Of a stretch of 64,000 bases of DNA, positions 31,665 through 55,325 are shown in pieces; the first letter of the stretch is position 1; every line of letters begins with the position of its first letter. A program made the position numbers and the translations under genes. This DNA comes from Nocardioides panacis (lineage in GTDB: Bacteria; Actinomycetota; Actinomycetes; Propionibacteriales; Nocardioidaceae). Under the pieces are notes generated by a model. That model saw nothing but the letters and a program-made list of their open reading frames with translations. It made no database searches and had not been told where the DNA came from. The stretch is taken from contig NZ_CP077062.1 in the NCBI RefSeq assembly GCF_019039255.1, forward strand, positions 1,612,001 through 1,676,000. The letters are read 5' to 3'.

Positions 31665-33248
31665 CTACCGCTGGTACACCCGGACGTAGTCGATGACGTA
31701 GTCGCTGGCGCCCAGGGGGGCGCCGATGACCGGCTTCTGGTAGTAGGCCGGCATGCTGCCACCGACCTGCAGGTTGAGCCGGATGTTCATCGGGGTGTCG
31801 AACGTGTCGTCCAACCAGGGAACCGCGGAGACCGTCTTGGAGAAGACCAGCCGGTCGTCGACGTACCACTGAACCGAGCCCGGCTCCCGGTCGACTGCGT
31901 AGGTGTGCCAGTCGCTGAAGGTGCCGCTGGGCAGGACGTCCTCGTGACCGAACCTGGCCATGTCACCGTTGGTGGACTGGTGGACGGTCTGCACGGTGCG
32001 GTTGCCCATGCCACCGACGGCCTCCATGATGTCGAGCTCGCCCAGGCCGCTGTTCTCACGCAGCCAGAAGGCCGGCCACATGCCCTGGGCGGCGGGCAGC
32101 TTGGCGCGCATCTCGATCCGCCCGTACTGCCAGGCTGCCTTGCCGATCGTGTCGAGGTAGCCCGAGGTGTACTGCCGGGTGGTGGACCCGACGGTGTAGG
32201 ACTCCTTCAACGCTCGCAACGTCAGCGCCCCGTTGGAGACGAAGACGTTGTCGGGCCGCGCGGTGACGATGGACTCCTCGTTGTTGGCCCACGAGTTGTT
32301 CCGGACGTTCCACTTGCTGCCGTCGAGCGAGGAAAAGTCGTCGGACCAGACCAGGCGGTACCCGGCGGGCGCGGGAACCACCGGCGGAACCGGCGGCGGC
32401 GTGGGAGGCGGCGACGTCGGAGCCGCCCCAGCGGGAGCAGCCGTCGTCGGGGTCGAGCGGGTCGGCGGCGTGGAGACCTTGACGAGACGCGGGGCGCTCA
32501 CCACGAAGCTCCTGTGGGCCGGGAGGGCCCACGTCAGCATGTCAAGGTCCAACGTGGCCCCGGACGTCTTGGCCTTGTAGCGCACCGTCACGTGAGCCCA
32601 GCGCGACGCTGGGTGCCTCGCGTCGGCACCACGCCCCGCCACCGCGCGCCGGTGCCCCTTCTTGCTGCGCATCCACCTGCTCGCCACCGCGGAGCCGCGC
32701 TTCGTCGAACCGTCGTACTCCACGAGCCGGACACCCGAGGACACACCGGACCTGGTGGCTTTGAGCCACACGCTGGCCCGGTAGACGGTGCCGGCCCTGG
32801 TGGAGGCCACGGTGTTGGTCTTGTCGTTGAGCGCGAGCGTCCGCGCTCTGCCGGTGGTGTTCGTCACCTTGATCCCACGCCGGCCGTCGTGGCCGTCGAC
32901 GACCGACAGGCGACCGCCGGACCTCACCGTCCACGCCGAGGTGCCGTGGGCGAAGTTCGGGTCCTTCACCAGGTTCCTCACGGACGGAGAAGCGACGGCG
33001 AGGGGGAACACGGCACATGCGGTGGGTACGACGGCCGTGATGACCGCGACAGCCGCGGTTCCGCGACGTGCCCGGCGGCGCGCTGAGGACGTCCGGGGGC
33101 TGGTCGAGCGGGGGGGGGAGTGCGGCCGGCCGTTCGGCTGGTCGTGCTCAGGACGCTTCTGAGGCGCTGGAAAGGGGTCATGCTGGGCCACGGGTCTCGG
33201 TGCGGTTGTCGGTGCGCTCAACGATCCCGGCCGCGTCCTACCCTCCAC
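31665..33248 (-). CDS. Secreted glycoside hydrolase family 16 with N-terminal carbohydrate-binding-type domain
   Basis: Endo-beta-glucanase-type enzyme acting outside the cell. After a signal peptide (RRRARRGTAAVAVITAVVPT) comes a beta-sandwich of CBM4/9 style (NLVKDPNFAHGTSAWTVRSG), a Pro/Thr linker (TSPPPTPPPVPPVVPAP) and the GH16 catalytic domain. Its catalytic motif is GELDIMEAVG (ExDxxE), with MWPAFWLRE before it and a final DYVIDYVRVYQR. The N-terminus is uncertain. A GTG at 33248 gives an unusually long leader, whereas an ATG at 33181 would fit if the nine-G run at 33110-33118 has lost or gained bases. Likely substrates are laminarin-type or other beta-glucans. It lies just downstream of the glycosyltransferase operon on the same strand. 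Confidence 0.87.
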   Translation of the reverse strand: MEGRTRPGSLSAPTTAPRPVAQHDPFPAPQKRPEHDQPNGRPHSPPRSTSPRTSSARRRARRGTAAVAVITAVVPTACAVFPLAVASPSVRNLVKDPNFAHGTSAWTVRSGGRLSVVDGHDGRRGIKVTNTTGRARTLALNDKTNTVASTRAGTVYRASVWLKATRSGVSSGVRLVEYDGSTKRGSAVASRWMRSKKGHRRAVAGRGADARHPASRWAHVTVRYKAKTSGATLDLDMLTWALPAHRSFVVSAPRLVKVSTPPTRSTPTTAAPAGAAPTSPPPTPPPVPPVVPAPAGYRLVWSDDFSSLDGSKWNVRNNSWANNEESIVTARPDNVFVSNGALTLRALKESYTVGSTTRQYTSGYLDTIGKAAWQYGRIEMRAKLPAAQGMWPAFWLRENSGLGELDIMEAVGGMGNRTVQTVHQSTNGDMARFGHEDVLPSGTFSDWHTYAVDREPGSVQWYVDDRLVFSKTVSAVPWLDDTFDTPMNIRLNLQVGGSMPAYYQKPVIGAPLGASDYVIDYVRVYQR

Positions 33249-33459: not shown

Positions 33460-34753
33460 TCAGGCTCTCAGCAGCGAGGTCATCTCGGCGTGCCGTCCGA
33501 GGTCCGTCTCCAGGGCCGACTGCCAGCCGGGGGAGTGGCGGTGCAGGTGCCGGTAGCAGCGGTGCAGGAACTCGACGCCCGCACAGGTCTCCAGGAGCGC
33601 GGCGTCGATCTCGGTGCCGGAGGCGCGGGAGTACGACGCCAGCAGTCCGTGGGCGACCGCCTGCTTGACGCGTGCCGGAAGTTCCCGCAGCGCGAGCTCC
33701 ACGAGGAACTCGGCGAGGTCCACCTCGGGGGGCCCGTGCACCATCGAGTCGAGGTCGACGAGCACGGGTCCTCGCGGTGACGAGACGAGCTGCGCGAGGT
33801 GGAAGTCGCCGTGCAGCGTGCGCACCCGCTCGTGGCGGGCCTCGCCGCGCCGCCTCGTCGTCGCGGTCACGACGTCGGCCACCACCGAGGTGATCGGGGG
33901 ATGGGCACGGACGAGCTTGGCCGCCTTCTTGTGCGTCTCGACGAGCAGGTCGTCGACGACGACGTCCCGCGTGAGAGGCACGGAGGATGCGTGCACGGCC
34001 GCGAGCAGCGCCCCGAGCGATGCCGTCGCCTCGGGCAGCTGGTCGGGCTCGACGGCGTCCGCCAGGGGGGTGCCCGGGGACCGCGCGGGTCCACAGCACT
34101 CCTCGGACCGGGTCCGCTGCCAGCGGCTCGGCGACCCGGAGCCCGTGTGACGGCTCCGACGCGGACCACAGTGCCTGGTGGCGGGCCCCGATGTCGGCGG
34201 TCGTGCCGTCTGCGAGGTGCTTGGCGAAGACGGCCGGTGCGCCGTCTCCCTCGACCTCGACCTCGAGGCGCAGCGTGGCGCTCGCCTCGGGCTGGTAGCG
34301 GACCACCGTCGTGCGCAGCCCGTCTCCCGGCGACGCCCCCAGCAGGTCGCGGACAGCCGGCGGCATGAGACCGGTAGCCAACCGGGGGTCGACCAGGGAA
34401 GGCAGCGTGGGGAGCCGTGGGTCCTCGGGGAACCGCCACACGACCAGGTCGAGCTCGGAGAGGTGCGCGCTCCGACCGTCACCGCGAGCCACTCGGTCCT
34501 GCTGCCAGGCCACCTGACTGGCGTCGCCCGCCGGGAAGCCCTTGACGTACAGCCTCACCGGGTCGGCGTCGTGCGAGGTGACGAGGTACGTCGCCCACCC
34601 CCGGCATCGCAGGGACTCCGGACGGAACGGATGCGTGAGCCGCGCGTCGAGCAGCCGCACCGTGGCCACCTCACCCGGTAGCCCGAGCCTGCCGCCGTGA
34701 CGCGCCAGGACGTCGGTCATCCACGCGACGTCAGTCAGGTTCGGGAGCCACAC
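33460..34753 (-). CDS. APH-fold phosphotransferase, last gene of operon (frameshifted)
   Basis: About 430 residues if joined. Kinase-like protein of the aminoglycoside phosphotransferase superfamily. The C-terminal half has the catalytic loop LHGDFHLAQLV, where the usual Asn of HGDxHxxN is Gln, and the metal site VLVDLDSMVHG. The N-terminal half includes WATYLVTSHDADPVRLYVKG. The break is in six G at 34065-34070; removing one gives AVPGHPLADAVEPDQLP. GTG 34753 with GAGGGGG upstream overlaps the preceding glycosyltransferase by 23 bp; an ATG at 34720 is the alternative. Probably a small-molecule or sugar kinase in the cluster rather than a resistance gene. Confidence 0.8.
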
Positions 34754-35941
34754 GCTGGCGCCCCCTCACGGCGGTCTCCGCGCTCCGTGCCGCCGACAGC
34801 GCCCGCAGCAGCTCCGACGTACGGGTGCGCCCGTCGAGGTCGAGAGGGACCGCGCGCGGAGTCCAGGCGAGGGCGTCGCGCACGGCGTCCTCGAAGGTCT
34901 GTGCCGAGAGTCGGGTCGGGTCGAGGACGCGCAGCGCACCGAGCCTCTCGAGCCTTCGGGCGCGGGCGGCCTGCTCGTCCTCCCGTCCCTCGCTGTAGGG
35001 CACGACGACGGCCGGTGTCGTGCAGCCGAGGATGTCCATCGTGGTGTTGTAGCCCCCCTGGCTCACCGACACGGCTGACGCTGCCATCTCGCTGCCGAGG
35101 TCGGGGAGGTAGCGCACCACCTCGAGCCCGGGCGCCCCCCGCCGCCCGGCTCGTGAGCTCGTCGACGACCGGGTCGGGGAGGAACGGTCCCGTCGCGATC
35201 ACGGTGCGCAGCCCGAGGTCGCGCCACAGGCGCGGCTGCGCCTCGACGGCCGCGCGGAACAGCGGCGCGCCGACCCGTCCGCCACCCGCCGACACGAGGA
35301 CCCGCCGCTCCCGCGAGGCCTCGCGGGTGCGGGAGCGGGGTGCACGGACGAATCCGGTGTAGTGCACGGGTACGCGCAGCGGGACGCTCGGACGGAACGT
35401 CTCCTCCAGGGTCGTGAACCGGGCGTCCGCGTGCACCAGCACGGCGTCGAAGTACGCGTTCGCCACCCTGCTCGCGCGGTCGTCGTGGCCCTGCTGGTCA
35501 CGTCGGCTGCTGACCAGGATGTCGCGCAGGCTGCAGGCGATGAAGGGGACGTGGCCGGCGGAGCGCGCGGCCTCCAGGAGCGGCATCAGCTCGCCCGCGA
35601 ACTTCCTGCGACCGAAGGGGAACAGCTCGATCAGCACCACGTCGGGGGTCGTGGCCCGGAAGCACTCCTGGATGATCGACCGGCGGAGCCGCAGAGCCCT
35701 CTCGACCGTGAACCGGTCGTCCCGGCTGACCAGGGCGTGGTCGCCGTCGAGACCCAGCGGCGGCAGGTGCACGACGTCGGTCGTGGGGGGGCTCGGGGAG
35801 CTCCGCGGGCCACGGCCCGCCGTTGAGGAGCGTGACGTCGAAGTCCTGCGCCAGGCCGTCGGCCAGGTGCATCGAGCGCACCAGGTGACCGAGCCCCGTC
35901 GTCTGCTGGCAGTGGAAGAGCAGACGTGGTCGCGTCGTCAC
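34731..35941 (-). CDS. GGYN-type glycosyltransferase (two frameshifts)
   Basis: About 402 residues if joined. GT-B enzyme resembling MurG/GT28: the N-terminal loop QTTGLGHLVRSMHLADGL and the C-terminal donor-binding motif SVSQGGYNTTMDILGCTTPA are both seen. Two breaks: seven G at 35785-35791 (correct reading PEPPTTDVVHLPPLG) and six C at 35135-35140 (correct reading SRAAGAPGLEVVRYLPDLG); each needs one base removed. Start GTG overlaps the upstream kinase stop (GTGA). The paralogue at 41562-42686 is the first gene of the same operon, so the cluster has two enzymes of this type. Confidence 0.82.
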
Positions 35942-37224
35942 CGGTCCGCCCCCTGGTGCCCGGCCCATCGCCGGGCCGTCGCCAGGACTCGCTCCAGGTC
36001 ACCGATCGTGGCGACGTCGACCCGGCTGATCGCGCGCGCCGCCCGCTCGACGAGCAGGGCCGCGGCGGCGTACCAGAGCAGGTCGGTGCGTGACGGCCCG
36101 TGCTGGTACGCCGCGAGCAGCGCCTCTGCGGCGGCCCGGGCCGTGTCGGGGTCGATGGGGTCACGCGGCCGCGGGCACCAGAGCCTGGCCAGCACGCCGC
36201 CGAGCTCGGCGGCGGCCGGTCCCGCGCTCGCCTCGTCGAAGTCGACGAGGCTGACGCCCTGGTCGTCCACCAGCACGTTCTTGGGGTGCAGGTCGCCGTG
36301 CAGGAGGACGCGCGCACCGGGTGGCGGTGCGGTCCTCAGCAGCTCGCGGACCAGCCCCTCGGTCACCGGGCCCAGGTCCGGTCGCGCGGCGCGGACCAGG
36401 CTCCCCGCGGCCACCAGCCGACCCGGATCCAGCCGCGTGAACGGCGCGAACCCGTGGATCGGCTGAGCGTGCAGCACCGACAGTGCGGCGCCGAGTGCCG
36501 CCATGGCCTCCGGGTAGGCGACCCGGTCCAGCTGGTGGAGCGGCCGACCGGGCGCGGGCGTGAACAACGCCAGGTGCTGGTCGGGCAGGTAGCCGATCGC
36601 ATCCGGCAGGCGCAGGCCGCCGCGCTCGGCGACCCCACGGCGCACGGCGCGCAGGAGGGCGACGCCGCGGCGGCCGTCGTCCCCGCTCTGCACCTTGGCG
36701 AAGCCGACCGTCGCCCCGCGCGCGTCCGCGCACCGGAAGGTGGCAGCCTTCTCCGGCGTGTACGCCTTCATCTCGCTCTGCGTCCACGGGGCACCGAAGA
36801 CGCTCCGGAGCCCCGGTGGCGGGCTGGTCAGCGCGCGAAGGCCGAGCAGCTTGCGGTCCTGCGGGAAGACCCAGAAGACGGTGCTCGTCTCCTCGTCGAA
36901 CAGCACCGACCCGGGATCGGCACCCTGGCGGACCGCGGCGTCGCGGGCGCAGCTGAACTGACCGGGGGCAGCGGCCGCCGGGAACATCCGCGCGCTCACC
37001 AGGAGGCCGCCCGGCTCGGGGCCGATGCGGTAGCTGGCCCGCAGGCTCTCGCCCCTGCGGTACTTCGCGCGGACCCGTTCACAGGTTCCGCTGCGATCGC
37101 CCGGGGCCCGGTCGAGCAGCCCGGCGAGCCGGGGGCCGACGACCCGGTCGTCGAGCAGGTCGTCGCGTCGCGGCAGCACAGGATCGGGGGCCAGGAGGAC
37201 CGTCTCCTGGGCGCTGCTGCTCAT
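35938..37224 (-). CDS. APH-fold phosphotransferase
   Basis: 428 residues, uninterrupted. Canonical kinase-like catalytic features: RVLLHGDLHPKNVLVDDQG near 305 (HGDxHxxN) and VSLVDFDEAS with the metal-binding Asp. The N-terminal 150 residues (AKYRRGESLRASYRIGPEP) contain the lobe that would bind ATP. Of the three kinase-like proteins in this cluster it is the only one with a fully canonical catalytic loop. Overlaps both neighbours by 4 bp (ATGA and GTGA). Confidence 0.85.
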   Translation of the reverse strand: MSSSAQETVLLAPDPVLPRRDDLLDDRVVGPRLAGLLDRAPGDRSGTCERVRAKYRRGESLRASYRIGPEPGGLLVSARMFPAAAAPGQFSCARDAAVRQGADPGSVLFDEETSTVFWVFPQDRKLLGLRALTSPPPGLRSVFGAPWTQSEMKAYTPEKAATFRCADARGATVGFAKVQSGDDGRRGVALLRAVRRGVAERGGLRLPDAIGYLPDQHLALFTPAPGRPLHQLDRVAYPEAMAALGAALSVLHAQPIHGFAPFTRLDPGRLVAAGSLVRAARPDLGPVTEGLVRELLRTAPPPGARVLLHGDLHPKNVLVDDQGVSLVDFDEASAGPAAAELGGVLARLWCPRPRDPIDPDTARAAAEALLAAYQHGPSRTDLLWYAAAALLVERAARAISRVDVATIGDLERVLATARRWAGHQGADR

Positions 37225-38585
37225 CGCGCCTCCTTCCGTCGGTCAGGGGAGTCCGCGTCGCCCGCCGCTGCGACCGGGCGGGCGTACAGCAACGAGGCCA
37301 TCCGCGCGGCGGCCGCCCCGGCGTCGAAGCGCTCGCGCACCGTCTCGCGTCCCCGCTTCGCCAGCTGTCGGGCCAGCTCGGGGTCCTTGATCAGCCGGTG
37401 CAGGGAGTCCGCGAGGTCGGTGGGGCGGTCGGGCTCGACGATCAGCCCGTTCACGCCGCCTCGCACCAGCTCGGTGATGCCCGAGACGCCCGTGGTGACC
37501 ACCGGGACGCCACAAGCCATCGCCTCGACGAGCACGTTCGGGATGCCGTCGCGGTCGCCGTCCTCGAGCACCCGGCACGGCAGTGCGAACACGCTGGCCC
37601 GCTGGTACTGCGCGAACAGCTCGTCCTGCGTCAACGACCCCGCGAGGGTCACCCGGTCCTGCAGGCCCGTCGCGCCCACCCGGGAACGAACCTGCTGCTC
37701 GTGGTCGCCGGACCCACCGACGATGACGGCCTCCAGGTCCACACCGCGGTCGCGCAGAACTGCGCACGCGTCCACGAACGTGTCCAGGCCCTTCTTGCGC
37801 ACCAGCCGCCCGACCGCGAGCAGACGGACGCGCTCGGGCTCCCGCCGTCGCACCCCCGCCGCGACGAGCGGCTCGAAGTCGGCGTTGAGACCGTGGTAGA
37901 CGACGTGCACCGGGGTCGAGGATCCGAACGACGTCAGGTGGGCGCGGTTGGCCTCGGTGCACGTGACGACGAACGAGGCGGCGTCCATCTTGCGTCGCAG
38001 GAGGCCGGCCGGGTTGCGCTCCTCGGTCCAGATGTCCTTCGCGTGCCCGGTGAACGAGAACGGGAGTCCGGTGATCGTGGAGGCCAGCCAGGTGACAGTG
38101 GTCGTGCCGTGCGCGAAGTGCGCGTGCAGCCGGACCACGTCGCCGCAGGCGTCGAGCCGGTCGGCCAGGTCGACAGCGAGGAGGAACTCCTTGAAGTAGA
38201 TCTTGCGGGGCGTGGCGAGGAAGCCGCGCCTGGCCCGGACCGCTTGGGCCAGTGCCTGCCCGGCGGCGTGCACCGTCCCCCTGGGGTGGCGGCGCGCCGT
38301 GCGCAGCAGGGCGGGCCGGAAGGCGGCCAGGTTGGCGCTCAGCCAGCGGAGCAGCCCGGTCGCGGACAGGGACGTCGTCTGCTGCAGGTAGTCGGGTCGG
38401 ACGCGGAGGCGTCGTACGACGTCGTGCTGGACCTCCTCGTTCCCCGCCTTCAGCACGTACAGGCGCAACGGCACCCCGAGTCGCTCCAGGCGGTAGATCT
38501 CGCTGGTGATGAACACCTCGGAGAGCCGCGGGTGACCCTTCAGCACGTAGGCCACCCGGCCGGCTTCCGCTGCCTGGTCACGCAT
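37221..38585 (-). CDS. GT4 family glycosyltransferase
   Basis: 454-residue retaining GT-B glycosyltransferase. It has VAYVLKGHPRLSEVFITSEI at the start, LHAHFAHGTTTVTWL and FSFTGHAKDIW in the acceptor domain, VGRLVRKKGLDTFVDACAVL at the donor domain, and the EX7E region in CRVLEDGDRDGIPNVLVEAMACG. The SEVFI/TFILNE-like start is typical of colanic-acid and exopolysaccharide transferases that act on lipid-linked sugars. The ATG overlaps the end of the previous GT4 gene by 8 bp. Confidence 0.9.
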   Translation of the reverse strand: MRDQAAEAGRVAYVLKGHPRLSEVFITSEIYRLERLGVPLRLYVLKAGNEEVQHDVVRRLRVRPDYLQQTTSLSATGLLRWLSANLAAFRPALLRTARRHPRGTVHAAGQALAQAVRARRGFLATPRKIYFKEFLLAVDLADRLDACGDVVRLHAHFAHGTTTVTWLASTITGLPFSFTGHAKDIWTEERNPAGLLRRKMDAASFVVTCTEANRAHLTSFGSSTPVHVVYHGLNADFEPLVAAGVRRREPERVRLLAVGRLVRKKGLDTFVDACAVLRDRGVDLEAVIVGGSGDHEQQVRSRVGATGLQDRVTLAGSLTQDELFAQYQRASVFALPCRVLEDGDRDGIPNVLVEAMACGVPVVTTGVSGITELVRGGVNGLIVEPDRPTDLADSLHRLIKDPELARQLAKRGRETVRERFDAGAAAARMASLLYARPVAAAGDADSPDRRKEAR

Positions 38586-39675
38586 GGACGACCTCCCGCG
38601 GACGGGCGTGCAGCAGCTTGAGACGTTCGACGACCCGACGGGTGCACGTCGCGAGGTCGAAGTGCTCCTCGACGTAGCGGCGCCCAGCGTTCCCCATCTC
38701 GGCGCGCAACCGTGGATCGGCGAGCGTGCTCAACGCGTCGGCGAGCGCGGGGGCGTCGGCCGGGGGCACGACCAGGCCGCTGCCCGCGGCGTGCACGGTG
38801 TCCCCGAGGACGGAGATGTCGGAGGCGACCAGCGGCCGACGACACGCCATCGCCTCGAGGGTCACGTTGGGCAGCCCGTCGCGGTCCCCGCTGCTGTCCA
38901 CGACCGAGGGCACCGCGACGACGTCGGCCCAGGCGTAGTCGTCGGGGAGGCTCTCGTGAGACCTGCGACCGGCGAGCTCCACCGTCCCGCCGAGCCCGTG
39001 GCGGTCGATGGACTCCTCGAGCGCCGGCTGCTCGACACCGGTGCCGACGATCCGCAGTCGCGCGGGGACCTGCAGTCGGTCGACCGCGTCGAGCAACGTG
39101 GAGAAGCCCTTCTTCTCGACCAGCCGGCCCACGGCCAGCACGTGCAGCCGCGCGTCGCCCACCGGGTGCCGGCGCGGACCGAAACGTGCGACGTCGACGC
39201 CGTGCGGGAGGAGGTACACCCGCGCACCGGGCAGCTCGACGTACCGCGCGACGTCGGTGTTGCACGCGATGACGCCGGCCGCGGCCCGGGCGCGACGAGC
39301 CAGCTCGGCCGGGGGGACCTTCCGGGCGTCGAGCGCGTGGACGCTGAAGCTGAAGCCCACCCCCAGGGCACCCGCCGCGCGGGCCGCGACCTCGGTCGGA
39401 CGATGGGCGAAGTAGCCGTGCACGCCCTGGACCCCCGCGTCCCCCAGGTCGTCGACCAGCTCCGACGCCTGGTTCACGGCATCGCCCGGGGGCAACGTCC
39501 GCAGCAGCGGCAGCAGCTCCTCGACGCCCGGTTGCGGCGCCTCCCCGTCGCCCGACTTCGTCGCGTAGACGCGGACCAGCACACCGGCGCGGGCGAGGGC
39601 GACGAGCTCCCCGACTGCGAACGTCTCGGACGTGCGCGGGAAGCCGCTCACCACGACAGCGAGGCGGGTCGTCAC
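38578..39675 (-). CDS. GT4 family glycosyltransferase
   Basis: 365-residue GT4 enzyme, a paralogue of the next gene: LAVVVSGFPRTSETFAVGEL at the start, VHGYFAHRPTEVAARAAGAL, VGRLVEKKGFSTLLDAVDRL, and DSSGDRDGLPNVTLEAMACR carrying the catalytic Glu pair. Start GTG 39675 overlaps the ABC transporter stop as GTGA. Because of the indel inside the transporter gene, the two genes appear in one continuous long frame; this is not a natural fusion. Confidence 0.9.
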   Translation of the reverse strand: MTTRLAVVVSGFPRTSETFAVGELVALARAGVLVRVYATKSGDGEAPQPGVEELLPLLRTLPPGDAVNQASELVDDLGDAGVQGVHGYFAHRPTEVAARAAGALGVGFSFSVHALDARKVPPAELARRARAAAGVIACNTDVARYVELPGARVYLLPHGVDVARFGPRRHPVGDARLHVLAVGRLVEKKGFSTLLDAVDRLQVPARLRIVGTGVEQPALEESIDRHGLGGTVELAGRRSHESLPDDYAWADVVAVPSVVDSSGDRDGLPNVTLEAMACRRPLVASDISVLGDTVHAAGSGLVVPPADAPALADALSTLADPRLRAEMGNAGRRYVEEHFDLATCTRRVVERLKLLHARPREVVHA

Positions 39676-41565
39676 GCGACGCCCCTCCCGCCGTCCGGAT
39701 CCGTCGTCGTCATGGGCGATCGACCGTCCCGTCGTCGGGGAGGAGCGCCCGGGGTCCCGAGCGGGTCCGGTCCCGGCCGGTCGGGCGGACGCGGGCTGCC
39801 GGTCAGCCCGCGGAAGGCGGAGTCCCGGCTGAGCAGCCGCTCCGGGGGGCCGTAGGCGACCACCCGCCCGGCAGCCATCACCGCGACCTGGTCGGCGGAG
39901 CGTGCGAGCTCGGTCGAATGGGTGATCAGGATCGTCGTGCGTCCCTCGACCAGACGGTTCAGCCCGGCCATCACCAACGCCTCGCTCCCCGCGTCCAGAC
40001 CGGTGGTCGGCTCGTCCAGCACGAGGACGGGGGGGATCGCGCAGCAGGACCCTCGCGATGCCGATCCGCTGGCGCTGGCCGCCGGACAGGCCCACCCCGC
40101 CGGGGCCGAGCAGGGTGTCGAAGCCCAGGGGCAGGGCCTCGATGAACGAGAGCGCCCCGGCGGCCCGGGCGACGTCCTCGACCGCCGCGAGGTCGGCGTC
40201 GGTGCCGTAGGCGATGTTGTCCCGGACGCTGCCGCTGAACAGGATGGTGTCCTGCAGGAGCACGCCGACCTGGTCGCGGACCCATCGCAGGGACAGCTCC
40301 CGCGCGTCCCTGCCGTCCACCCGGACCGCGCCGCGGCTGGGGTCGTAGAAGCGCGCGACGAGGGCGCCGACCGTCGACTTGCCGGCCCCCGACTCGCCGA
40401 CGAGAGCCAGCCGTGACCCGCTCGGCACGTGCAGGGTGACGCCTTCCAGCGCGGCTCGCTCCTTCGTGTACCGGAAGTACACGTCGTCGAGGTCGATGGT
40501 GCCGGCAGCGCGGTGGTCCGGCCTCTCGGAGTCGGTGTCGTCGGCCAGCACCGTGTCGGAGGACAGGATCTCGGCGATGCGCTCGAGCCGGGCGAGGGCC
40601 CGCGCTGCCCGGCTGGCCTGCTTCGCGATGTCCTTGAGCGGCTTGTACAGCTTGTTGGTGTAGGCCACGACCACGACGAGGTCGCCGGGGCTGATCCGCC
40701 CGTTCGCGACCGACAGGACACCGAGACTCAGGACCAGCGCGGTGGCCACAGCCCCGAGCACGTCCACCAGCGCCCCGAAGCGGGCTTCCACCCGGGAGCT
40801 CTCGACGCCGACCTTCAGCCGCTCGGCGCTCCGCAGCTGGACCCGGTCGTGCTCGAACCGCTCGGTGCCGAACGCCTTGATGACCTGCATCGCGGACAGC
40901 GCCTCGGTGGCGAGCGACGCGATCTCGCCCTCCTGGGCCCGCTGCGTGCGCGCCATCAGCCGGATCCGCTTCTGGTAGTGCGTGGTCGTCGCCAGCAGGA
41001 GCGGCGTGACCAGGAAGGCGACGAACGCCAGCAGGGGGTCGATCCAGAACATCACGGCGAACATGCCGACGAGCACGAGCGACGAGGACGCCAAGGTGCC
41101 GAGCGTCTGCGAGAAGAGGTCACCGACAGCGTTGACGTCGCCGGTCACCCGGGCGACGAGGTCACCGGTCGGGCGGTTCGAGTGGAAGACCAATGACAGC
41201 CGCTGCAGATGCTCGTAGGTGGCCGTCCGCAGGTCGTGGACGATCTGCTCGCCGGACCGGTTGAGCCAGAAGTCCGAGAAGAAGGTGGCCAGGGCGTCGA
41301 CCATCGCGATGCCGAGCACCAGGGCGGCGAGTCCCAGCAGCAGGGTGAGGTCGTCGCCGGTGAGCTCGAAGTCCGTGCCCCGCCCGGTCACCAGCTGGTC
41401 GATGGCGATCTTCAGCGGCCACGGTGCAGCGAGCTGGGCGAGGGTGAGCGCGACCGTCGAGGCGGCAGCGCCGGCGAGCGCACCCCAGTGGCGGCGTGCG
41501 TGACTCCTCAGCAGCCGCATCGTGGGGTTCCGCGGGCGTGCCGGGACGGTCTCCTCCGCACTCAT
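39672..41565 (-). CDS. ABC exporter, fused permease and ATPase (frameshifted)
   Basis: About 630 residues if joined; a type IV half-transporter of the MsbA/lipid-export kind. Residues 1-310 hold six membrane segments. The ATPase has Walker A GESGAGKSTV, Q-loop QVGVLLQDTILFSG, signature LSGGQRQRIG, Walker B VLVLDEPTTGLDAGS and H-loop ILITHSTELA. The break is between signature and Walker B, in seven G at 40029-40035; removing one gives RDPPVLVLDEPTTG. It would move a lipid-linked or other glycoconjugate across the membrane as a homodimer. Second gene of the operon, overlapping the first (ATGA). Confidence 0.88.
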
Positions 41566-42686
41566 CGCACGCTCCGTACGGCGCTGAGCGCCTGCAGCCG
41601 ACGCGCCGCGTTCAGGGCCCCGTCGAGGTCGATCCCGGCGGACTCGAGGGCGCCGTCGGAGAGGCTGCGGGGGTGCAGCCGGATGAGGGACGCGACCTCA
41701 CCGGGATCCGTTCCCGGATCGACGACGTTGGCGAGCCCCAGGCCGCCGAGCCAGTCGGCCCGGATGGCCTGCTCGCGGCGCGGCGTGCGGCGGGGCATCA
41801 GGATCGGCCGTCGTCCCGCGGCGAGTGCCTCGAGGGTGGAGTTGTAGCCGGCCATGCACAAGATCGCGTGGGCGCGCGAGAACCACCGCCCGCACGCGTC
41901 CAGGGGACCGACCACGCGCACTCGGTCGGACCCCAGCCGGCTGAGCTGGCGCAACGCGTCGGCGCCCGCGTACGGGCCGGGGGCGAAGAGACCGACCAGG
42001 TCGGCGCGGTGCCCGAGCAGTCGTGCGCCCATCTCGAAGACGGCGGCTCCGTCGCCACCGCCACCCGCCGCCACGACGAGGAGGTTGCCGTCCGAACGGC
42101 TCGGGCCCGGTCGTTCGACGACCCAGCCGCAGTAGTGCAGCGGAAGGCTGAGGCCGTACTCGACCTCGTGGTCGACGAAGTGCCGGCCTCCGTAGACCAG
42201 GACCTCGTCGTAGACGTTCCCGACGTCCGCCCACCCCCCGCCTCGCATCTCCTCCCGGACGATCGACGGCTCGTCCAGGACGTCTCGCAGTCCGAGCACG
42301 AGCGCGGACCCGAGCCCTCGCGCCAGGTCGAGGCCGGTCCGGAGCTCGCCCGCCGTGCCGTAGGGATGCCGGTCCACCACCACGACGTCGGGCCGCTCCT
42401 CCTCGACCAGGGTCGCGAAGATCCGCTCGCGTTCCCGCAGGGCGGCCCCGAAGGGAAGCTTCTCGTGGCGGTAGGACCCGTCCGCCGACTTGAGCATCGG
42501 CGGCACACGGTGCACGCGCACCCGGGCTGCCTGGCGCAACCAGCGCGGGCGCACCTCGACCCCCGTGACCAGGCTGACCTGAGCGGCCGGGTCGGTGTCC
42601 AGAACCGCGCGGGCTATCAGGCTGTTGCGACGAACGTGGCCGAGGCCGTAGCCGTCGTGCGAGTAGAAGAGATAGCGCGTGACCAC
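41562..42686 (-). CDS. GGYN-type glycosyltransferase, first gene of operon
   Basis: 374-residue GT-B glycosyltransferase similar in plan to MurG/GT28: N-terminal YSHDGYGLGHVRRNSLIARA and donor-binding AILCMAGYNSTLEALAAGRR. The GTG at 42686 is preferred because AGGGGGA lies 6 bp upstream; the frame extends to 42758 without conserved sequence. It probably uses a UDP- or dTDP-sugar. It is transcribed away from the divergent APH-fold gene across a 153-bp spacer that must hold promoters for both directions. Confidence 0.85.
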   Translation of the reverse strand: MVTRYLFYSHDGYGLGHVRRNSLIARAVLDTDPAAQVSLVTGVEVRPRWLRQAARVRVHRVPPMLKSADGSYRHEKLPFGAALRERERIFATLVEEERPDVVVVDRHPYGTAGELRTGLDLARGLGSALVLGLRDVLDEPSIVREEMRGGGWADVGNVYDEVLVYGGRHFVDHEVEYGLSLPLHYCGWVVERPGPSRSDGNLLVVAAGGGGDGAAVFEMGARLLGHRADLVGLFAPGPYAGADALRQLSRLGSDRVRVVGPLDACGRWFSRAHAILCMAGYNSTLEALAAGRRPILMPRRTPRREQAIRADWLGGLGLANVVDPGTDPGEVASLIRLHPRSLSDGALESAGIDLDGALNAARRLQALSAVRSVR

Positions 42687-42839
42687 GAGGGTCCCCCTCG
42701 TACTACCGCAGATCGCCCGAGGTCTGCTGGACGAAACGCTCCCCCCCAGAAAGCGCACTACCGGTTGGGATCTCCTTCATCGTGCGCCGCGACCCCTTCC
42801 GCGGCAACATCAATAGGTACTAGTCAGCTGGAGGGCGAG
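42687..42839. promoter_or_regulatory. Divergent promoter region of the glycosyltransferase cluster
   Basis: 153-bp spacer between divergent starts. It contains an AT-richer stretch (ACATCAATAGGTACTAGTCA, 42807-42826) just before the plus-strand GGAGG, and an AGGGGGA ribosome site for the minus-strand gene. No exact sigma consensus was recognised. Confidence 0.45.
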
Positions 42840-44076
42840 ATGAGCGGTGGAGCTGGGCCGTACCGAGGCAGGCTCGAGGTGCTGGCGGCCGGTGGCGTTC
42901 TCGAGGCCCAGCTCGACGCCTGGGCGGCGCGACGGTCAACCGACCGGCCCGGGCCGTGGCGGCGCGTCCGCGGCAAGCTGCGCCCGCAGCGCTCTCCCTG
43001 GGCCGTCCTGGTCTACGAGGCGGTGGGCGGTCCGACCGTCCAGGTCCGCCTGCTCGAGGACAGCGACCCGAGGGCCGACGCTGCGCGCGGCGCGCTGCGT
43101 GGCGGCGACCTGGGTCCGGTCGAGATCGTGTCCTGCGCGGCGGACCCGGCGCTCCCGGGACTGCCTGCGGTGCTGGCGGCGCTCGACCGTCCTCGGGTGG
43201 TGCGCTACCACCCGGGCAACCGCTGCACCGTCCACGGAGGGGCAGGATCGGCCGCCCGGTACGTCAAGGTCCAGGCCGAGGGCATCGACGACCAGCAGGG
43301 GGTGCGGGCGCGGTGGGCAGCCTCGCTGTCCGGAGCGCTGTCCTTCGCGGTGGCCGAGCCGCACGGCTGGGACGAGCAGACCCGGTCGAGCTGGTACGGC
43401 GTCGTGCCGGGCGGACCCGTGCATCCTCGACTTCTCGGGCCCCATGGTGCCCAGCTCGCACGTCAGGTGGGGGCGTCGCTGGGCCAGCTCGCGACGGCGG
43501 TGGTGCGGCCGCCCAGGAGGGTGGACGCGACGGACCAGCTGGCCCGGACCGAACGGGCGCTGGCGCGGGCGACCGCTGCCGCCCCTGCTCTGGCGCCCGG
43601 GCTGCGGAGAGCGTCCGACTCGCTCACCCGTGCCCACGACCGACTGGGCGCACGGCCACTCGTCCCGGCGCACGGGGCGGCGCACCTCGGGCAGTGGCTG
43701 GTGGACGACACCGGTCGGTTGGGTCTCGTCGACTTCGACCGTTTCGCGTGGGGTGAGCCGGAGTTCGACCTGGCCACCTTCGTCGTCGAGCTGGCTGGTG
43801 CGTCCGCGGGTCAGCCGACGGACGAGCTCGAGACGGCAGTCCTCGACGGCTTCCGTGCGGTCGCCGGCGCGCCGGACGAGCTGCGGCTGGCGATCTACGT
43901 CCTGCACCGGCAGCTGGCCCAGGTTGCCCGGACCGCCTGCGCGCTCCGTCCCGACGCCGAGGAGCGCGCCGCGCCACTGCTCGAGCAGCTGCAGCGCCCG
44001 CTGGACCGGCTCGCCCGGCAGCGACCGGGCGGCGACACGCGCACGGCGTCGCGGGGGACAGCCGGGGGGGACCTGA
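42840..44076 (+). CDS. APH-fold protein with degenerate catalytic loop (frameshift at end)
   Basis: About 411 residues. The fold is aminoglycoside-phosphotransferase-like: VVRYHPGNRCTVHGG, AARYVKVQAEG for the ATP lobe and LGLVDFDRFAWGEPEFDLAT with the metal-site Asp. The catalytic loop reads VPAHGAAHLGQWLVD where HGDxHxxN is expected, so both the catalytic Asp and the Asn are lost; it is probably a pseudokinase. ATG 42840 has GGAGGGCGAG upstream. The literal frame runs to 44237 through a terminator and a tRNA-like sequence. With one base removed from seven G at 44064-44070 it stops at 44076, which is preferred. Confidence 0.78.
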
Positions 44077-44158
44077 CCCCCGTGCGCCCGGCGGCTCGCC
44101 GGGTCGCGACCCGAGCAGGGTCTGCTCGTCGACGGAGACCATCGTCTGAAACGGAAAA

Positions 44159-44193
44159 CGCCCCACCGGCAGGCGCTGCCTGCTGGTGGGGCG
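44159..44193 (-). terminator. Strong intrinsic terminator
   Basis: A 16-bp stem with one G-U pair and a 3-base loop: CGCCCCACC-G-GCAGGC at 44159-44174 pairs with GCCTGC-T-GGTGGGGCG at 44178-44193. Read on the minus strand it is followed by CGTTTTCCGTTTC, so it ends minus-strand transcription, as expected 13 bp downstream of a tRNA 3' end. Confidence 0.8.
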
Positions 44194-44205
44194 AGTCCGA
44201 CTCAC

Positions 44206-44233
44206 TGGTGTCCGAGGGGGGGACTCGGACACC
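44206..44233 (-). other. tRNA-Leu-like 3' end, putative attachment site
   Basis: Read on the minus strand, this ends in the last bases of a tRNA: a C-rich T-arm strand, acceptor strand CTCGGAC, discriminator A and encoded CCA. The seven bases GTCCGAG that precede the C-run would pair with CTCGGAC, as the 5' acceptor strand of actinobacterial tRNA-Leu does; the body of the tRNA is missing. On the plus strand it forms a perfect 10-bp hairpin. An intrinsic terminator follows at normal tRNA spacing. With recombinase genes starting 450 bp away this looks like one end of an element integrated in a tRNA gene. Confidence 0.55.
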
Positions 44234-44277
44234 GTGAACCGGGCGATTGCCCATCTGACTCGAAGGAGTGGATGGGC

Positions 44278-44565
44278 ATGGAGGGCCTCCTAGGGATGGT
44301 CCGGTCGGTGCGGCGGTGGCTGGTGCATGCGGTCATCGTGCACCCTGGGCACCGCGAGGCGGAAGAGCCGGACGCGGATCCGTGTCCCGGCCGATGCTGC
44401 CACGGCAGGCCGGCCCGGGGCTGCGGAAACCGGACCGCGAGACCGGTCGGGTCAACCGGTCGTCTGGGGGTGACCGACGCGCGGGCACCCACTGCCAGCC
44501 GGGGTCCCGGACAGGTGGGCTGGCGGAGCCCCGCGGACGACCGGTGCCGCGATCGGGGCGCGTAG
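44278..44565 (+). CDS. Possible small protein
   Basis: Open frame of 95 residues starting MEGLLGMVRSVRRWLVHAV with AAGGAG 9 bp upstream. The N-terminal half looks codable (RRWLVHAVIVHPGHREAEEP), the rest is Arg/Gly-rich and may not be. Kept because of the good ribosome site only. Confidence 0.3.
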   Translation: MEGLLGMVRSVRRWLVHAVIVHPGHREAEEPDADPCPGRCCHGRPARGCGNRTARPVGSTGRLGVTDARAPTASRGPGQVGWRSPADDRCRDRGA

Positions 44566-44612
44566 CACCAAGCGAACGGCGGCGGACCGCGGCGGCGGCG
44601 GCCCGAGCCTCG

Positions 44613-44666
44613 GTGCGGTCGGTGCGGTCGGTGCGGTCGGTGCGGTCGGTGCGGTCGGTGTGGTCG
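44613..44666. repeat. 9-bp tandem repeat
   Basis: Six head-to-tail copies of GTGCGGTCG (44613-44666), five perfect and the last with one change (GTGTGGTCG). It lies 12 bp beyond the stop codon of the first recombinase gene and would encode Thr-Asp-Arg repeats if read on the minus strand, but no gene is supported there. Confidence 0.9.
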
Positions 44667-44678
44667 CGGACGGTCATC

Positions 44679-45825
44679 TCAGTCCTCGAGTCGACCGAAC
44701 GCACGCTCCGCGGCCACACACAGTTCGGCCCAGGACGGGTTGGTCAGGTACGGGCTGGAGATGCCGAACTGGCTCATGCTGTGGTTCATCCAGAAGCTGG
44801 ACAGGAAGGGATCCTTCGTCGCCTGCCGGATCCGGTCCGTCGAGGTGTGCCGCAGCCAGTGCGGGCTGACCCCGACGAAGGCACCGTCGGCACCGTAGGC
44901 CAGCTCCGCGGCAGCGGTGTGAAACAGGGTGTCCAGGTAGCGGCGGGTGACGGGTGCGCCATGTTGCTGCCTGAGCACGCGATCGGGTCCCTCTGTTGCG
45001 CCGCGTTCCCGTCCGAGCTCCAGGGCGCGGCGCAGCACGGAGCGGGCCACCGGGATCCGCTGCCCCTTCGCGTTCTTCTGGAATACCTGGATGGCGCAAC
45101 CCACCAGGTCGATGCCGTCGACGGTCAGCTGCAGGATCCCTTCGCGACGCGACCCCGACCGGATGAACAGATCCAGCAGCAGGAGGTCGAGGATCGGATC
45201 GCGGCGCCGAAGGCAGATCCACGCGCGGAGATTGGCCTCTTCCCGGGCATTGATCGGACGTCGGTTGTGCTGTTGCGGAGGCTTGCCGAGACCGTCTGTC
45301 GGACTTCGGCAGAGGTGTCCGTCGCGGACCGCCTCGCTGAAGAACCGATGCGTCGCCTCGGCGAAGTTGCGCGCCGCACCCTGGCCGTGATCGTCGGCGC
45401 GGTAGGAGGCCAGGGGGGCGTCCTGCCGCGCGGGCGGCCGCCACCTTGTGTGCCCCGGTCCTCTCCTTGATGGCGGCCTGGAGCACTTCGAGATCGCTGC
45501 GCCGCACCTTGCGAATCTTCCGGTGCCCGATCCCTCGCACAGCCGGGTAGGCAACGTGGTCGATCTCTTCCGCGGGCAGCCCGTCCAGCAGTCGGCGAAG
45601 CGAGACGTCGTTGGGGGGCTGACTCATCCACTTGGGGAGCCCGAGCCGGCGCCGAACGTCGCGCACCGTCCGGTTGCGTCGGTGGCGCTTCCTGGCTCGC
45701 TTCCGTTTCGCCCGGGCGATACGGTGCTGACGGTCCTGGTCCAGCCCGTGCAGCAGCGTCATCAGGTCGTGAGTCGCGACGGGCCCGGCCTCCGGCGGCC
45801 GGGTGCCTTCCGGCTCGGAGGTCAT
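44679..45825 (-). CDS. Tyrosine recombinase / phage-type integrase (frameshifted)
   Basis: About 381 residues if joined. The catalytic domain shows the first Arg in RSGSRREGILQL, the HxxR box in SPHWLRHTSTDR, and the Tyr in FGISSPYLTNPS. The N-terminal part has a basic stretch ARAKRKRARKRHRRNRTVRD and a SAM-like core-binding region (RNFAEATHRFFSEAVRDGHL). The break is in six G at 45413-45418; one base less gives ARAAGRPLASYRADD. ATG 45825 overlaps the end of the preceding small gene as ATGA. It sits at the left end of the accessory region beside the tRNA-like sequence, where an integrase would act. Confidence 0.85.
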
Positions 45826-46241
45826 GGCGACCACCATCCGAACCGGACGCCCTGCTTGCGGATCCGCTTGTCGACCGTGGCCGAGATCAGCCGGTGGTCG
45901 ATCACGACCAGTCGGCGCGTGGCGTGTTGGTACCGGACGACGACGCGTGGCGCTCCGTCGAGGTACCGCTCCCAGAGCAGCAGCCCCAGTGTCAACCGGC
46001 CCGCGGGGTCGATGAGGGGGCGGGCCGGTCGGGTCGGCAGGCAGTCGGGATCGGTGGTCAAGACGACCCAGCCCGGCTGCGCGGCGAACACGCGGGACGA
46101 CAGGGCGCTCTCTCGGACCGCGGTGGCCGTCGGACGGGGCAGGCCGAGGCGCAGGCGAGCGCTGGGGTCGACGGAGGCGACCGTGAGAAAACTGCGGGCT
46201 GCCTTGCGCGGCGCCGCGGCGTCGCGCTCGTCCCTGTTCAT
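45822..46241 (-). CDS. Hypothetical protein in recombinase module
   Basis: 139 residues with no recognised domain. The C-terminal half is likely beta-rich (LTLGLLLWERYLDGAPRVVV, RRLVVIDHRLISATVDKRIR). Its stop overlaps the recombinase start by 4 bp, so it is probably an accessory protein made with the recombinase. Confidence 0.65.
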   Translation of the reverse strand: MNRDERDAAAPRKAARSFLTVASVDPSARLRLGLPRPTATAVRESALSSRVFAAQPGWVVLTTDPDCLPTRPARPLIDPAGRLTLGLLLWERYLDGAPRVVVRYQHATRRLVVIDHRLISATVDKRIRKQGVRFGWWSP

Positions 46242-46251
46242 GCCTCAACCG

Positions 46252-46522
46252 TCACCCACAGGGGTGCGACCTGGGTATCGGAGGTCTGGCAATGTCCGCG
46301 AGTGACTTGAGTCGGTCGCTGGGGTCCGGGATCCACCACGTCCGGTTCGCCGGCGGCTTCATGCCTCCCCAGATGGGAGCGATGCTCCGCAGCTTGCCGA
46401 CTTTCCCCGGGGACGCCGAGGAGCGCCGCGAGAGCCCGAGCACCCTCGTCAGGTCTCGTCCGCGACAGCGCCCGGGGGTGCCCGAGCCAGCCGCCGGAAT
46501 GGGGAGACTGGCGGACCGCCAC
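46252..46522 (-). CDS. Possible small DNA-binding or excisionase-like protein (doubtful frame)
   Basis: Two overlapping minus-strand frames cover this stretch. One starts GTG 46522 and contains DEGARALAALLGVPGESRQA, which has the look of a helix-turn-helix start. The other contains KLRSIAPIWGGMKPPANRTW and stops at 46252. They join if one G is removed from GGGG near 46413. The join would give a 90-residue protein similar in size to excisionases, but the evidence is thin. Confidence 0.35.
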
Positions 46523-46534
46523 GTATCCGAGGTG

Positions 46535-47086
46535 CTAAGCGCGGTCGGCCCGTTGCACGCCCTGCCCCCAGGCGACTGCCTCGCGGCAAGCCGCGAGGGC
46601 GCGGTCGCTCAGCAGGAGTTCACAGGGATCCTCAGCGGACACCAGCTCGAGATGAACCTCCTGCTCGGAACGAGAACACATCACCAGTCCGGACTCAGGA
46701 TGACGCACGATCTTCCGCAGCTCGGCATCGTTGGTGTCGAGTCCCATCGCCGCGCAGTTGCTGCGCAGGTCGATCAGATGGACTCGCGGCGAGAAGCGCT
46801 CGCTGCTTGGAACGAGTTGGCGTGCCATGACCGTCAACGTCACGACCGTGCGCACGGCTCCGGCATGGGACAGCTGAGACACGAGCGTGCTGGGCAATTC
46901 CGGGCCCCGAGGTGTGGATCTGAAGACGCGCCGAAGGGTGCCCGGCTGGAGGCGGGTTCGAGCGGCCATCTCCTCGGCCCACCGGATCGCCACACTGAGC
47001 TGGTACTCCGCGAGGAGGCGTCGCACCAGCCGCTCGAACTGTTCGCGATCGGGCTCACCGTCACGCGGGGGAGGTTCACTCGTCAT
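46535..47086 (-). CDS. Hypothetical protein in recombinase module
   Basis: 183 residues from ATG 47086 with GGAAGG 6 bp upstream. The protein is mostly helical at first (EQFERLVRRLLAEYQLSVAI) and contains ELPSTLVSQLSHAGAVRTVV. No known domain is seen. It lies between the XRE regulator and the small excisionase-like frame on the same strand, so it is likely part of the mobility module. Confidence 0.65.
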   Translation of the reverse strand: MTSEPPPRDGEPDREQFERLVRRLLAEYQLSVAIRWAEEMAARTRLQPGTLRRVFRSTPRGPELPSTLVSQLSHAGAVRTVVTLTVMARQLVPSSERFSPRVHLIDLRSNCAAMGLDTNDAELRKIVRHPESGLVMCSRSEQEVHLELVSAEDPCELLLSDRALAACREAVAWGQGVQRADRA

Positions 47087-47520
47087 CGCTAGACCTTCCA
47101 GCTCCTCGTGTGCTGACGAGTACTTGGTAGCGCATCTCCTCGCCGAAGTTTCCGGGCGCAGACGGTGTCGGAGGGAGGTGGACCTGGAGGAGGGACCGAG
47201 GTTCGCCACGCTAAGTGGGCGCCCGTGGGCGCCTGTGGGCGCTTGTGGGCTGTCGTGGGCGCTCAACAAGACCGCGAGATCTATCCCTAAAAGTACGTTT
47301 TTGTAGCGGTGCCAGGACTGGCGAGCGTGAGTTGCGTCTGGCTGTCCGTTTGGCTGCGCCGTGGCGGTGTCGCGCCCGGGCTGACCGACCGGCTCGCCAG
47401 GATTGGTTTTCACGCACCGGCGTGTCGCCCGGGTATGACCTGTTGGATACAGCCTCCGGGGGACCGAAGGTGCCGGCAACGCCGGCCGTGCGGTGTCGTC
47501 CGACGTGGTTGGCCGGAACG
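47087..47520. other. 434-bp control-type region in recombinase module
   Basis: No gene is supported here; frames on both strands have poor codon bias. It contains five 10-bp tandem repeats (47215-47264) and then a short AT-rich patch (CCCTAAAAGTACGTTTTTGT, 47285-47304) unusual for this genome. It is a candidate promoter/operator or replication-type region for the module. Confidence 0.55.
47215..47264. repeat. Five 10-bp tandem repeats (iteron-like)
   Basis: Exact 10-bp period: GTGGGCGCCC, GTGGGCGCCT, GTGGGCGCTT, GTGGGCTGTC, GTGGGCGCTC. The GTGGGC core is constant in all five. The spacing of one helical turn is suited to cooperative protein binding on one DNA face. Confidence 0.9.
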
Positions 47521-47826
47521 TCAGGTGGCGCGCCCGTCGGGAGGTTTGCTGGGGAGCCGGCGAGGCCGGGTCGCACTGCCGAACGGATAGACGCCCACCA
47601 ACAGATCCACCAGGAGGACTTGGTAGGCATCCGCGAGAGAGACCAGCAACGGTATCGAGGGAAGCCTTCGCCCACGCTCGCAGTCAGAGATGTGCTGCTG
47701 GGAGGACCCGGTCAATCCCGCAACTTGGTCGAGTAGAAGCTCCGAGTCGATCCGCGCCTCGCGCAATCGCCGACCCAACTGGCGTGCGAGCAGCTGCTTG
47801 TTGCTGTCGCTCGTCCAGTCAGCCAC
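47521..47826 (-). CDS. XRE-family transcriptional regulator
   Basis: 101 residues with a helix-turn-helix of the Cro/CI type: LGRRLREARIDSELLLDQVA, then GSSQQHISDCERGRRLPSIP as recognition helix and following turn, and LLVSLADAYQVLLVDLL as the last helices. Probably controls the recombinase module and may bind the 10-bp repeats downstream; that pairing is inference. It starts 10 bp after the preceding gene. Confidence 0.8.
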   Translation of the reverse strand: MADWTSDSNKQLLARQLGRRLREARIDSELLLDQVAGLTGSSQQHISDCERGRRLPSIPLLVSLADAYQVLLVDLLVGVYPFGSATRPRRLPSKPPDGRAT

Positions 47827-47835
47827 GGGGGCAGC

Positions 47836-48535
47836 CTAACCATCCTCGGCCCGCGATGTGAGCATCGTGCGCCAGCTGGGCCGAGCGCGCCGAGCGACGC
47901 GCAATAGACGCGCCGAAGCGGGAAGCGCCAAGAAGGCCGGGACGCGGTCGGCGAACAGGGTCGCCAACTGGTCGACTGCGTCCCGGGCGATGCTGCGGTC
48001 GCGAGCGAGGGCCTCGAGGAGCTCTTCAACGGTCGTGTCGACGTCATCGAACACGTCGTCGATCACCGACGCCAGCGCCCGGATGACCTGGTCCCTGTTC
48101 AAGCCGATGACGGGCTCCGCCGCTGGTCGCACGTCGGCCCCGGCGGGGGCGCCAGCGCCGGAGCCGGGGGGCCCCCACTGAGGACGGGTGGGCCTGCTGC
48201 TCCATCCAGTCGATGATGCGCGTCGCCAGCACCTCCAGCGGGTAGGCGTCGCGCACCCGCAGGGGTGGGGTGTTCGGCGTCACCGGTGTCAACCACAACA
48301 GGGCGGGGTCGTCGCGGTCCCAGTGAGCGACCGCGATCCATGTAAGGCCGCCCCAAGCGGCGACCACCTGGTTGCCGGAGACGATCCGGCCACCCGGCAG
48401 CACGTTTTCGGCCAGTGTCCAGACTCCGTGCTCACCGCGTTGGTGAGGATCGGCCAGGACATCCGGCAGCGCGGCAAGTAGCTGGGCCGACCGGGTGAGT
48501 GGGCGCAGTCGTCTCGCCGGCTCCTCCTCAGTCAC
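47836..48535 (-). CDS. Hypothetical protein downstream of second recombinase (frameshifted)
   Basis: About 232 residues if joined. The N-terminal half reads EHGVWTLAENVLPGGRIVSG and LTWIAVAHWDRDDPALLWL; the C-terminal half is helical (LNRDQVIRALASVIDDVFDD). They are in different frames, meeting at six G plus five C (48166-48176); removing one base links SSVGAPGSGAGAPAGADVRP. GTG 48535 overlaps the recombinase stop by 8 bp, so translation is coupled. No known domain. Confidence 0.6.
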
Positions 48536-55309: not shown

Positions 55310-55325
55310 TCCGATACTCAGACCA

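Follow-up and report, generated by a model that had tools for sequence, protein, structure and literature searches.

We analysed a 64,000-nucleotide stretch of Nocardioides panacis DNA, hereafter the window, which corresponds to positions 1,612,001-1,676,000 of a one-contig genome of 4.90 Mb (the host genome, G000). The minus strand carries seven co-directional, overlapping genes in the order MGT1-ABC-GT4A-GT4B-APH1-MGT2-APH2. They encode two MurG/GT28-like glycosyltransferases (MGT1 and MGT2), an ATP-binding cassette (ABC) exporter, two GT4-family glycosyltransferases (GT4A and GT4B) and two kinases of the aminoglycoside phosphotransferase (APH) fold. An eighth gene, APH3, is divergent. The junctions, read off the sequence, are ATGA at 41565-41562 (MGT1/ABC), GTGA at 39675-39672 (ABC/GT4A), 8 bp at 38585-38578 (GT4A/GT4B), ATGA at 37224-37221 (GT4B/APH1), GTGA at 35941-35938 (APH1/MGT2) and 23 bp at 34753-34731 (MGT2/APH2). 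The seven minus-strand genes are one operon. This layout, including the divergent third APH-fold gene, is that of the original prediction, which also described a glycoconjugate assembly and export module with no polymerase, flippase or initiating transferase. The domains agree: Pfam searches of the eight genes and of their counterparts in G001, a genome of the same genus, gave no such Wzx/Wzy-locus domain.

MGT1 (41562-42686) was assigned by alignment and by a profile match to MurG. Its motifs in the family alignment are YSHDGYGLGHVRRN, VLGLRDVLD and MAGYNS. The conserved start is the GTG at 42686; a longer open reading frame (ORF) begins at 42758. When compared with the PDB, the C-terminal half of the family profile matched MurG (1f0k, E value 1e-9) and a processive diacylglycerol beta-glucosyltransferase (9wde, 0.0018). 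MGT1 is unlike these GT28 enzymes in belonging to no Pfam family (no match up to an E value of 0.1). The only NCBIfam family touched was MJ1255, at 15.2 bits against a cut-off of 195.9. The AlphaFold model has a mean predicted local distance difference test score of 84.6. MGT2 (34731-35941) contains two frame breaks and was recognised from the homology of its three pieces to G001. The G001 orthologue matches Glyco_tran_28_C (PF04101) at 9.2e-13, with 49 bits against a cut-off of 22.

The ABC exporter (39672-41565) is a fused transmembrane and nucleotide-binding domain protein with one frame break. Its N-terminal piece matches ABC_membrane (PF00664, 3.2e-49) and ABC_tran (PF00005, 3.7e-22), and the best NCBIfam match of this piece is MsbA (TIGR02203, E value 1.3e-89; score 301 bits, cut-off 602). 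The domain fusion is shared with MsbA-type flippases of lipids and lipid-linked oligosaccharides. Unlike those proteins, the exporter scores under the MsbA cut-off, and in some relatives of the module it is fused to a kinase. Capsule export by Wzm/Wzt uses a separate permease and ATPase, whereas the window exporter is one protein. A 995-residue ORF (38578-41565) was considered as a true ABC-GT4 fusion and rejected; ABC and GT4A are two overlapping genes with a frame break near 40037.

GT4A (38578-39675) matches PF13692 (5.3e-28) and PF00534 (9.5e-27) and is 79% identical to its G001 counterpart. GT4B (37221-38585; PF00534, 7.1e-37; 80% identity) is EpsE/WcaL-like and matches the EpsE model NF041876 at 1.6e-48, under its cut-off. 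APH1 (35938-37224) matches PF01636 at 1.7e-20 and is 66% identical to the G001 protein. For APH2 (33460-34753), which has one frame break, the C-terminal piece matches PF01636 at 2.1e-9 and the G001 orthologue does so at 3.5e-16. APH3 is on the plus strand (42840-44237; PF01636, 2.4e-10; 71% identity). Its frame starts at ATG 42840 and stays open until 44237, with homology to G001 stopping at about 44012. The end previously given to this gene, 44076, has to be corrected; it belongs to ORF 42847-44076, a frame without homology.

All eight genes are present in G001, unbroken and in the same order, and encode proteins 66-87% identical to those of the window. The setting is different: among the genes flanking the G001 module only a sulfatase matches the window, at 27% identity and distant from the operon. 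Parts of the module also lie on short contigs in G075 and G004. The gene order, on whose conservation the original prediction had staked its claim, is kept in a relative, and variant forms occur far beyond. With the host included in each count, 6 of 39 genomes had an APH1 match with an E value no higher than 1e-8, strong matches being limited to G001 and to a fragment in G004. A family sample of 197 genomes gave 10 with MGT1 (1e-10), and a class sample of 296 gave 15 with a match to the MGT profile (1e-20). Distribution of the module is scattered and not universal.

To describe the variants we used a genome-contig scan for MGT1 relatives, in which 566 relatives were confirmed and the best 80 retained, and operon runs tabulated for 110 fetched loci. 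One locus, L036, apparently duplicates the contig of L024 and was excluded from the neighbour and residue counts; other repeats are possible, and L037 has no called MGT. Type A, MGT-ABC-GT4-GT4-APH(-MGT-APH), is the form in the window and G001; L038, L039 and L041 have the same form but lack its second MGT. Type B, MGT-GT4-GT4-ABC-APH-APH, is found in L028-L031, L116, L118-L120, L122, L123, L127 and L128. Type C, MGT-APH-APH-GT4-APH-ABC/APH(-APH), is found in L009, L026, L034 and L035. The run MGT-GT4-GT4-ABC-APH(-APH) extends across several actinobacterial families to Verrucomicrobiota (L089, and L050 with one inserted gene) and Planctomyces (L084). In the acidobacterium L066 the MGT gene is divergent from ABC, APH and GT4 genes. 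Of the actinobacterial loci, 25 have 6.5 kb or more of flank on both sides, some of them being close relatives (for example L118-L121); in 22 of these 25, genes for ABC, GT4 and APH proteins all lie within 9 kb of the MGT gene. The three exceptions are L042, with ABC alone, L129, with none of the three, and L130, which lacks ABC; locus L117, on another contig of the L130 genome, has MGT1-ABC-APH.

Forms without a kinase also occur, and some of these carry a nucleotide-sugar dehydrogenase, or an additional MGT and, next in order, a relative of a DUF2334-like protein (for this protein type, 24.4 bits in L130, under the cut-off of 26). L092 and other Ruegeria-type loci have the order MGT-GT4-GT4-histidine phosphatase-MGT2-deacetylase-like protein-methyltransferase, again without a kinase. 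In loci of Methylobacterium, a single protein label covers both MGT2 and the deacetylase-like part.

The host genome contains a second module, of type C, at 4.56 Mb (L009; G000:C1:4560477-4572300, about 4400-16600), 2.9 Mb away from the operon along the contig. It encodes six APH-fold domains, one of them inside a 1080-residue ABC-APH fusion. Such single ABC-APH proteins are found in L009, L026, L034, L035, L046 and L086, and were confirmed with Pfam for L009 and L086; in L094, ABC and APH are separate neighbouring ORFs. We placed the MGT proteins in a tree of 78 rows, made by a quick method without a mixture model and with support from the Shimodaira-Hasegawa-like approximate likelihood ratio test (SH-aLRT) only. 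A listed set of 42 loci, mostly of alphaproteobacteria but including L036 and the Chloroflexi locus L053, was dropped, as were proteins under 250 residues. Window MGT1 falls within a set of 13 actinobacterial rows (SH-aLRT 100). MGT2 is in a clade of its own (SH-aLRT 100), with the G001 MGT2 orthologue apart from MGT1. L046 and L086 are apart from the type C loci; the ABC-APH fusion is present in two separate lineages. By eye, neighbours of L009 resemble inositol-phosphate synthase and a GH38 mannosidase. The L086 run (13484-19159) is MGT-GT4-GT4-ABC/APH-sulfotransferase-APH-APH, which suggests that the product of this lineage is sulfated.

The window operon has frame breaks in ABC near 40037 (C7), in MGT2 near 35800 (C7) and 35135 (G6), and in APH2 near 34074 (C6). 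We repaired no frame and searched the broken pieces separately. Identity to the unbroken G001 proteins is alike on both sides of each break (ABC 87/83%; MGT2 87/74/77%; APH2 75/70%). Runs of at least seven G or C occur 1.41 times per 10 kb in the window, 0.5 times in the G001 locus (L008) and 0 to 0.5 times at nine other relatives' loci. For runs of at least six, the values are 5.3 in the window and 0 to 4.0 in relatives' loci; for runs of at least five there is no clear difference. The sign is not uniform in other stretches of the host, with 2.0 runs of at least seven per 10 kb in L009 and 0.5 in L011. Two unrelated window genes also look split, an acyl-CoA dehydrogenase (about 3100-4308) and a CoA-ligase-type gene (about 23365-26000), from C-terminal Pfam matches and frames judged by eye. 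Because identity is alike across the breaks, long G/C runs are commoner in the window and unrelated genes are split, assembly indels at C/G runs appear likelier than decay. Operon decay was provisionally set aside on the even identity and because the MGT of the second host module likewise matches in two pieces.

We next considered the catalytic residues of the APH-fold proteins. The view that all three are kinases is not supported: each has the fold by Pfam, but one lacks a key residue. APH1 keeps the Lys, catalytic Asp, Asn and DxD Asp (HGDLHPKN, DFD), and the C-terminal piece of APH2 has Asp, Gln and Asp (HGDFHLAQ, DLD). In APH3 the loop is HGAAHLGQ, with Ala for the catalytic Asp, and the G001 and G075 orthologues have the same change. 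Judged by the residues expected of an active APH-fold kinase (Lys, Asp, Asn/Gln, Asp), APH1 has the complete set and APH3 does not; APH3 is a predicted pseudokinase. Glucosamine kinase holds magnesium by the Gln of its loop HGDFHVGQ (PMC6520443). By analogy with that enzyme, Gln at the Asn position of APH2 would be compatible with activity (PMC6520443).

The same mixture is seen in relatives. We aligned 93 APH-fold domains from 84 proteins encoded anywhere in the fetched loci, operon membership not being strictly required; L036, L029_5, L049_3 and L065_3 were left out. Eight domains were incomplete. All four residues are present in 59 of the remaining 85 and changed in 26: 14 at Lys, eight at Asp and six at Asn/Gln, two of these domains being changed at two places. 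A full kinase is paired with a changed one in, for example, L028-L031, L116, L123 and L125; L118-L121, L127 and L128 have two full kinases. Pseudokinase-like proteins of 684-756 residues with twin APH domains are encoded in L009 (7122-9299), L026, L034, L035 and L094. In these proteins Gly or Ala replaces the catalytic Asp of the first domain, and His occupies the Asn/Gln position of the second. Identity with the class V lanthionine synthetase kinase LxmK was tried and rejected (NF038156, cut-off 315 bits; APH1 25.9 and G001 APH2 30.6 bits); 11 of 19 kinases match that model at E values up to 1, the best at 5.3e-14.

What we observed directly is the gene content, with its family assignments, order and conservation, together with the catalytic residues and the ABC-kinase fusions of relatives. 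These findings describe what is probably a line for assembling and exporting a glycan or glycolipid of the cell envelope, built in the cytoplasm on a membrane anchor and then flipped outward. The substrates and sugars, the acceptor, the group phosphorylated and the order of steps are what we infer in the following scheme. MGT1, which is MurG-like, would put the first sugar on a membrane acceptor; this would explain an operon without a sugar-phosphate initiating transferase. GT4A, GT4B and MGT2 would then extend a short, defined oligosaccharide, for which no polymerase is needed. APH1 and APH2 may add phosphate to hydroxyl groups of sugars in the growing chain or in the donors. Phosphorylation of the product, as in the original prediction, stays hypothetical. 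APH3, lacking the catalytic Asp, may bind the same kind of ligand and act as a scaffold, checkpoint or regulator. Finally, the MsbA-like exporter would flip the finished product outward. In relatives with an ABC-APH polypeptide, the kinase or binding step and the export step would be physically coupled. A bolder and distinctly tentative proposal is that these loci represent a widespread and so far unnamed class of systems for glycan export. In it, active and degenerate APH-fold kinases would act directly on the glycan bound for export and gate its passage through the ABC flippase, with fusion to the flippase as the extreme case (kinase-controlled glycan flipping).

Companion genes in relatives give a hint of the product. 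They encode a nucleotide-sugar dehydrogenase (L029, TIGR03026 above cut-off), an NAD epimerase with a heparinase II/III-like protein (L130) and a sulfotransferase (L086). Because of these genes, a uronic-acid-containing glycan is hinted at, indirectly so for the window. No match to heparinase II/III was found in the host genome.

Several observations weigh against an export line built around kinases. The window operon has no nucleotide-sugar gene, and the only UDP-glucose/GDP-mannose dehydrogenase-domain match of the genome is 3.0 Mb away along the contig. The surroundings of MGT in 52 Pseudomonadota loci (of which 12 have enough flank) and three Chloroflexota loci (two with enough) yielded no APH gene; hence, the kinases are not universal. 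Some of the kinase-less forms carry a histidine phosphatase (by Pfam in L092; by motif, judged by eye, in L047, L053 and L070). Antibiotic phosphotransferases are the solved structures nearest to the kinases. Annotation of the loci comes from a home-made gene caller with BLAST and HMM labels.

The nearest structures bear on two other explanations of the kinases. The kinase profile matches an aminoglycoside phosphotransferase (4h05, 4.7e-17), a corramycin phosphotransferase (8agy, 1.2e-13) and a maltokinase (5jy7, 4.5e-6). The last match would be expected if the kinases phosphorylated a free sugar, in the manner of maltokinase or glucosamine kinase, for conversion to a nucleotide sugar, with the exported glycan carrying no phosphate. 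The likeness of the APH2 loop to that of glucosamine kinase, with Gln for Asn (PMC6520443), favours such a role. So do matches of one of 19 kinases to the GlcN_kinase NCBIfam model (3.2e-4) and of two of 19 to the maltokinase model (0.013 or weaker). Against it, the antibiotic phosphotransferases outscore the maltokinases, and Pfam matched no nucleotidyltransferase domain in the eight genes. The genes of the module also differ in context from those of maltokinase and glucosamine kinase, and the helix motif of the actinobacterial glucosamine kinase (Q-x2-RE-x2-YA-x3-LP-x-W) was absent from all 87 proteins examined, which included three window proteins; identity with that enzyme was rejected. 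Fusion to an exporter is not obviously expected of a free-sugar kinase. We regard a precursor role as rather unlikely.

It is improbable, in turn, that the operon is a natural-product cluster for an oligosaccharide antibiotic, kept inert inside the cell by phosphorylation and exported by the ABC protein. APH-fold proteins beside glycosyltransferases and an exporter would suit such a cluster, as would the two best structural matches. Conversely, similar gene order occurs in several phyla, the host genome has two different modules, and catalytic residues are changed in 26 of the 85 aligned domains. APH1 scores 23.9 bits against the 205-bit NCBIfam cut-off for APH(3'), and aminoglycoside resistance of that kind was rejected. 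The moenomycin phosphoglycolipid pathway, one of the closest known systems, has several glycosyltransferases, ABC export and a uronic acid sugar, and is not known to include APH-fold kinases.

We give an equally small chance to a conventional wall polymer locus, teichuronic-acid-like or for a capsule, with odd accessories and with APH-fold proteins that mainly bind. The dehydrogenase and epimerase neighbours in relatives and the 26 changed domains are in its favour, but the eight genes yield no polymerase or initiating-transferase domain and 59 of 85 domains keep all four residues. Anti-phage defence was dismissed, as only the ABC proteins among nine proteins matched PADLOC models (mad3, mad8 and AriA; best mad3, 4e-30, for the G001 ABC protein), which we take as generic ATPase likeness.

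A secreted GH16 enzyme had been placed directly downstream of the operon. A GH16 gene is indeed present (31665-33248, minus strand; PF00722, 1.7e-20), but it is not adjacent to the module in G001 and is probably a neighbour and not a member. On the other side, at 44000-64000, GC content is 0.67-0.71, compared with 0.71-0.78 on the left, and gene calls turn short. Two genes there were named by eye, one as HipA-like (56595-57959) and the other as an XRE-type regulator (58702-59847). The fall in GC content, the short gene calls and these two genes suggest that the right flank is an island.

No published description of the module was recognised in searches of the open-licence literature of PubMed Central (subscription papers were outside the search), in keeping with the earlier claim that the gene set is undescribed. 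The nearest described arrangement that we found is the ytaA(cotI)/cotS cluster of Bacillus (PMC2860764). In that cluster (cotSA, ytcA-C, ytdA), APH-like spore kinases are encoded with a related pair of glycosyl transferases and with UDP-glucose dehydrogenase and epimerase genes (PMC2860764). Like the window operon, which has GT4 enzymes, the cluster combines APH-like kinases with glycosyltransferases and includes pseudokinase members; unlike it, the cluster is spore-associated and its gene table, as far as available, has no ABC exporter or MurG-like transferase (PMC2860764). The window operon has no UDP-glucose dehydrogenase gene, which is present in the operon run of several relatives. Kinases of the window type are far under the cut-off of the CotS model (TIGR02906, 172.7 bits), with APH1 at 10.2 bits (E value 0.26) and six of 19 kinases matching at E values up to 1 (best 0.0092); identity with CotS spore kinases was rejected. 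At 1e-3 the spore_CotS model had no match in the whole host genome and was positive in seven of 14 control genomes, including B. subtilis. The module looks like a distant cousin of the ytaA/cotS cluster, with an exporter.

In the 2009 paper on the Bacillus spore-kinase family, several members are predicted pseudokinases, the catalytic Asp having been lost repeatedly, and the substrate was left open (PMC2860764). The role of APH-fold kinases beside glycosyltransferases was likewise left open there (PMC2860764). The compact module described here, with its exporter and with exporter-kinase fusions in relatives, ties such kinases to a product bound for export and offers a small, non-sporulation system in which the substrate might be found. 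If the proposed reading is true, members of several phyla would make such a molecule at their surface.

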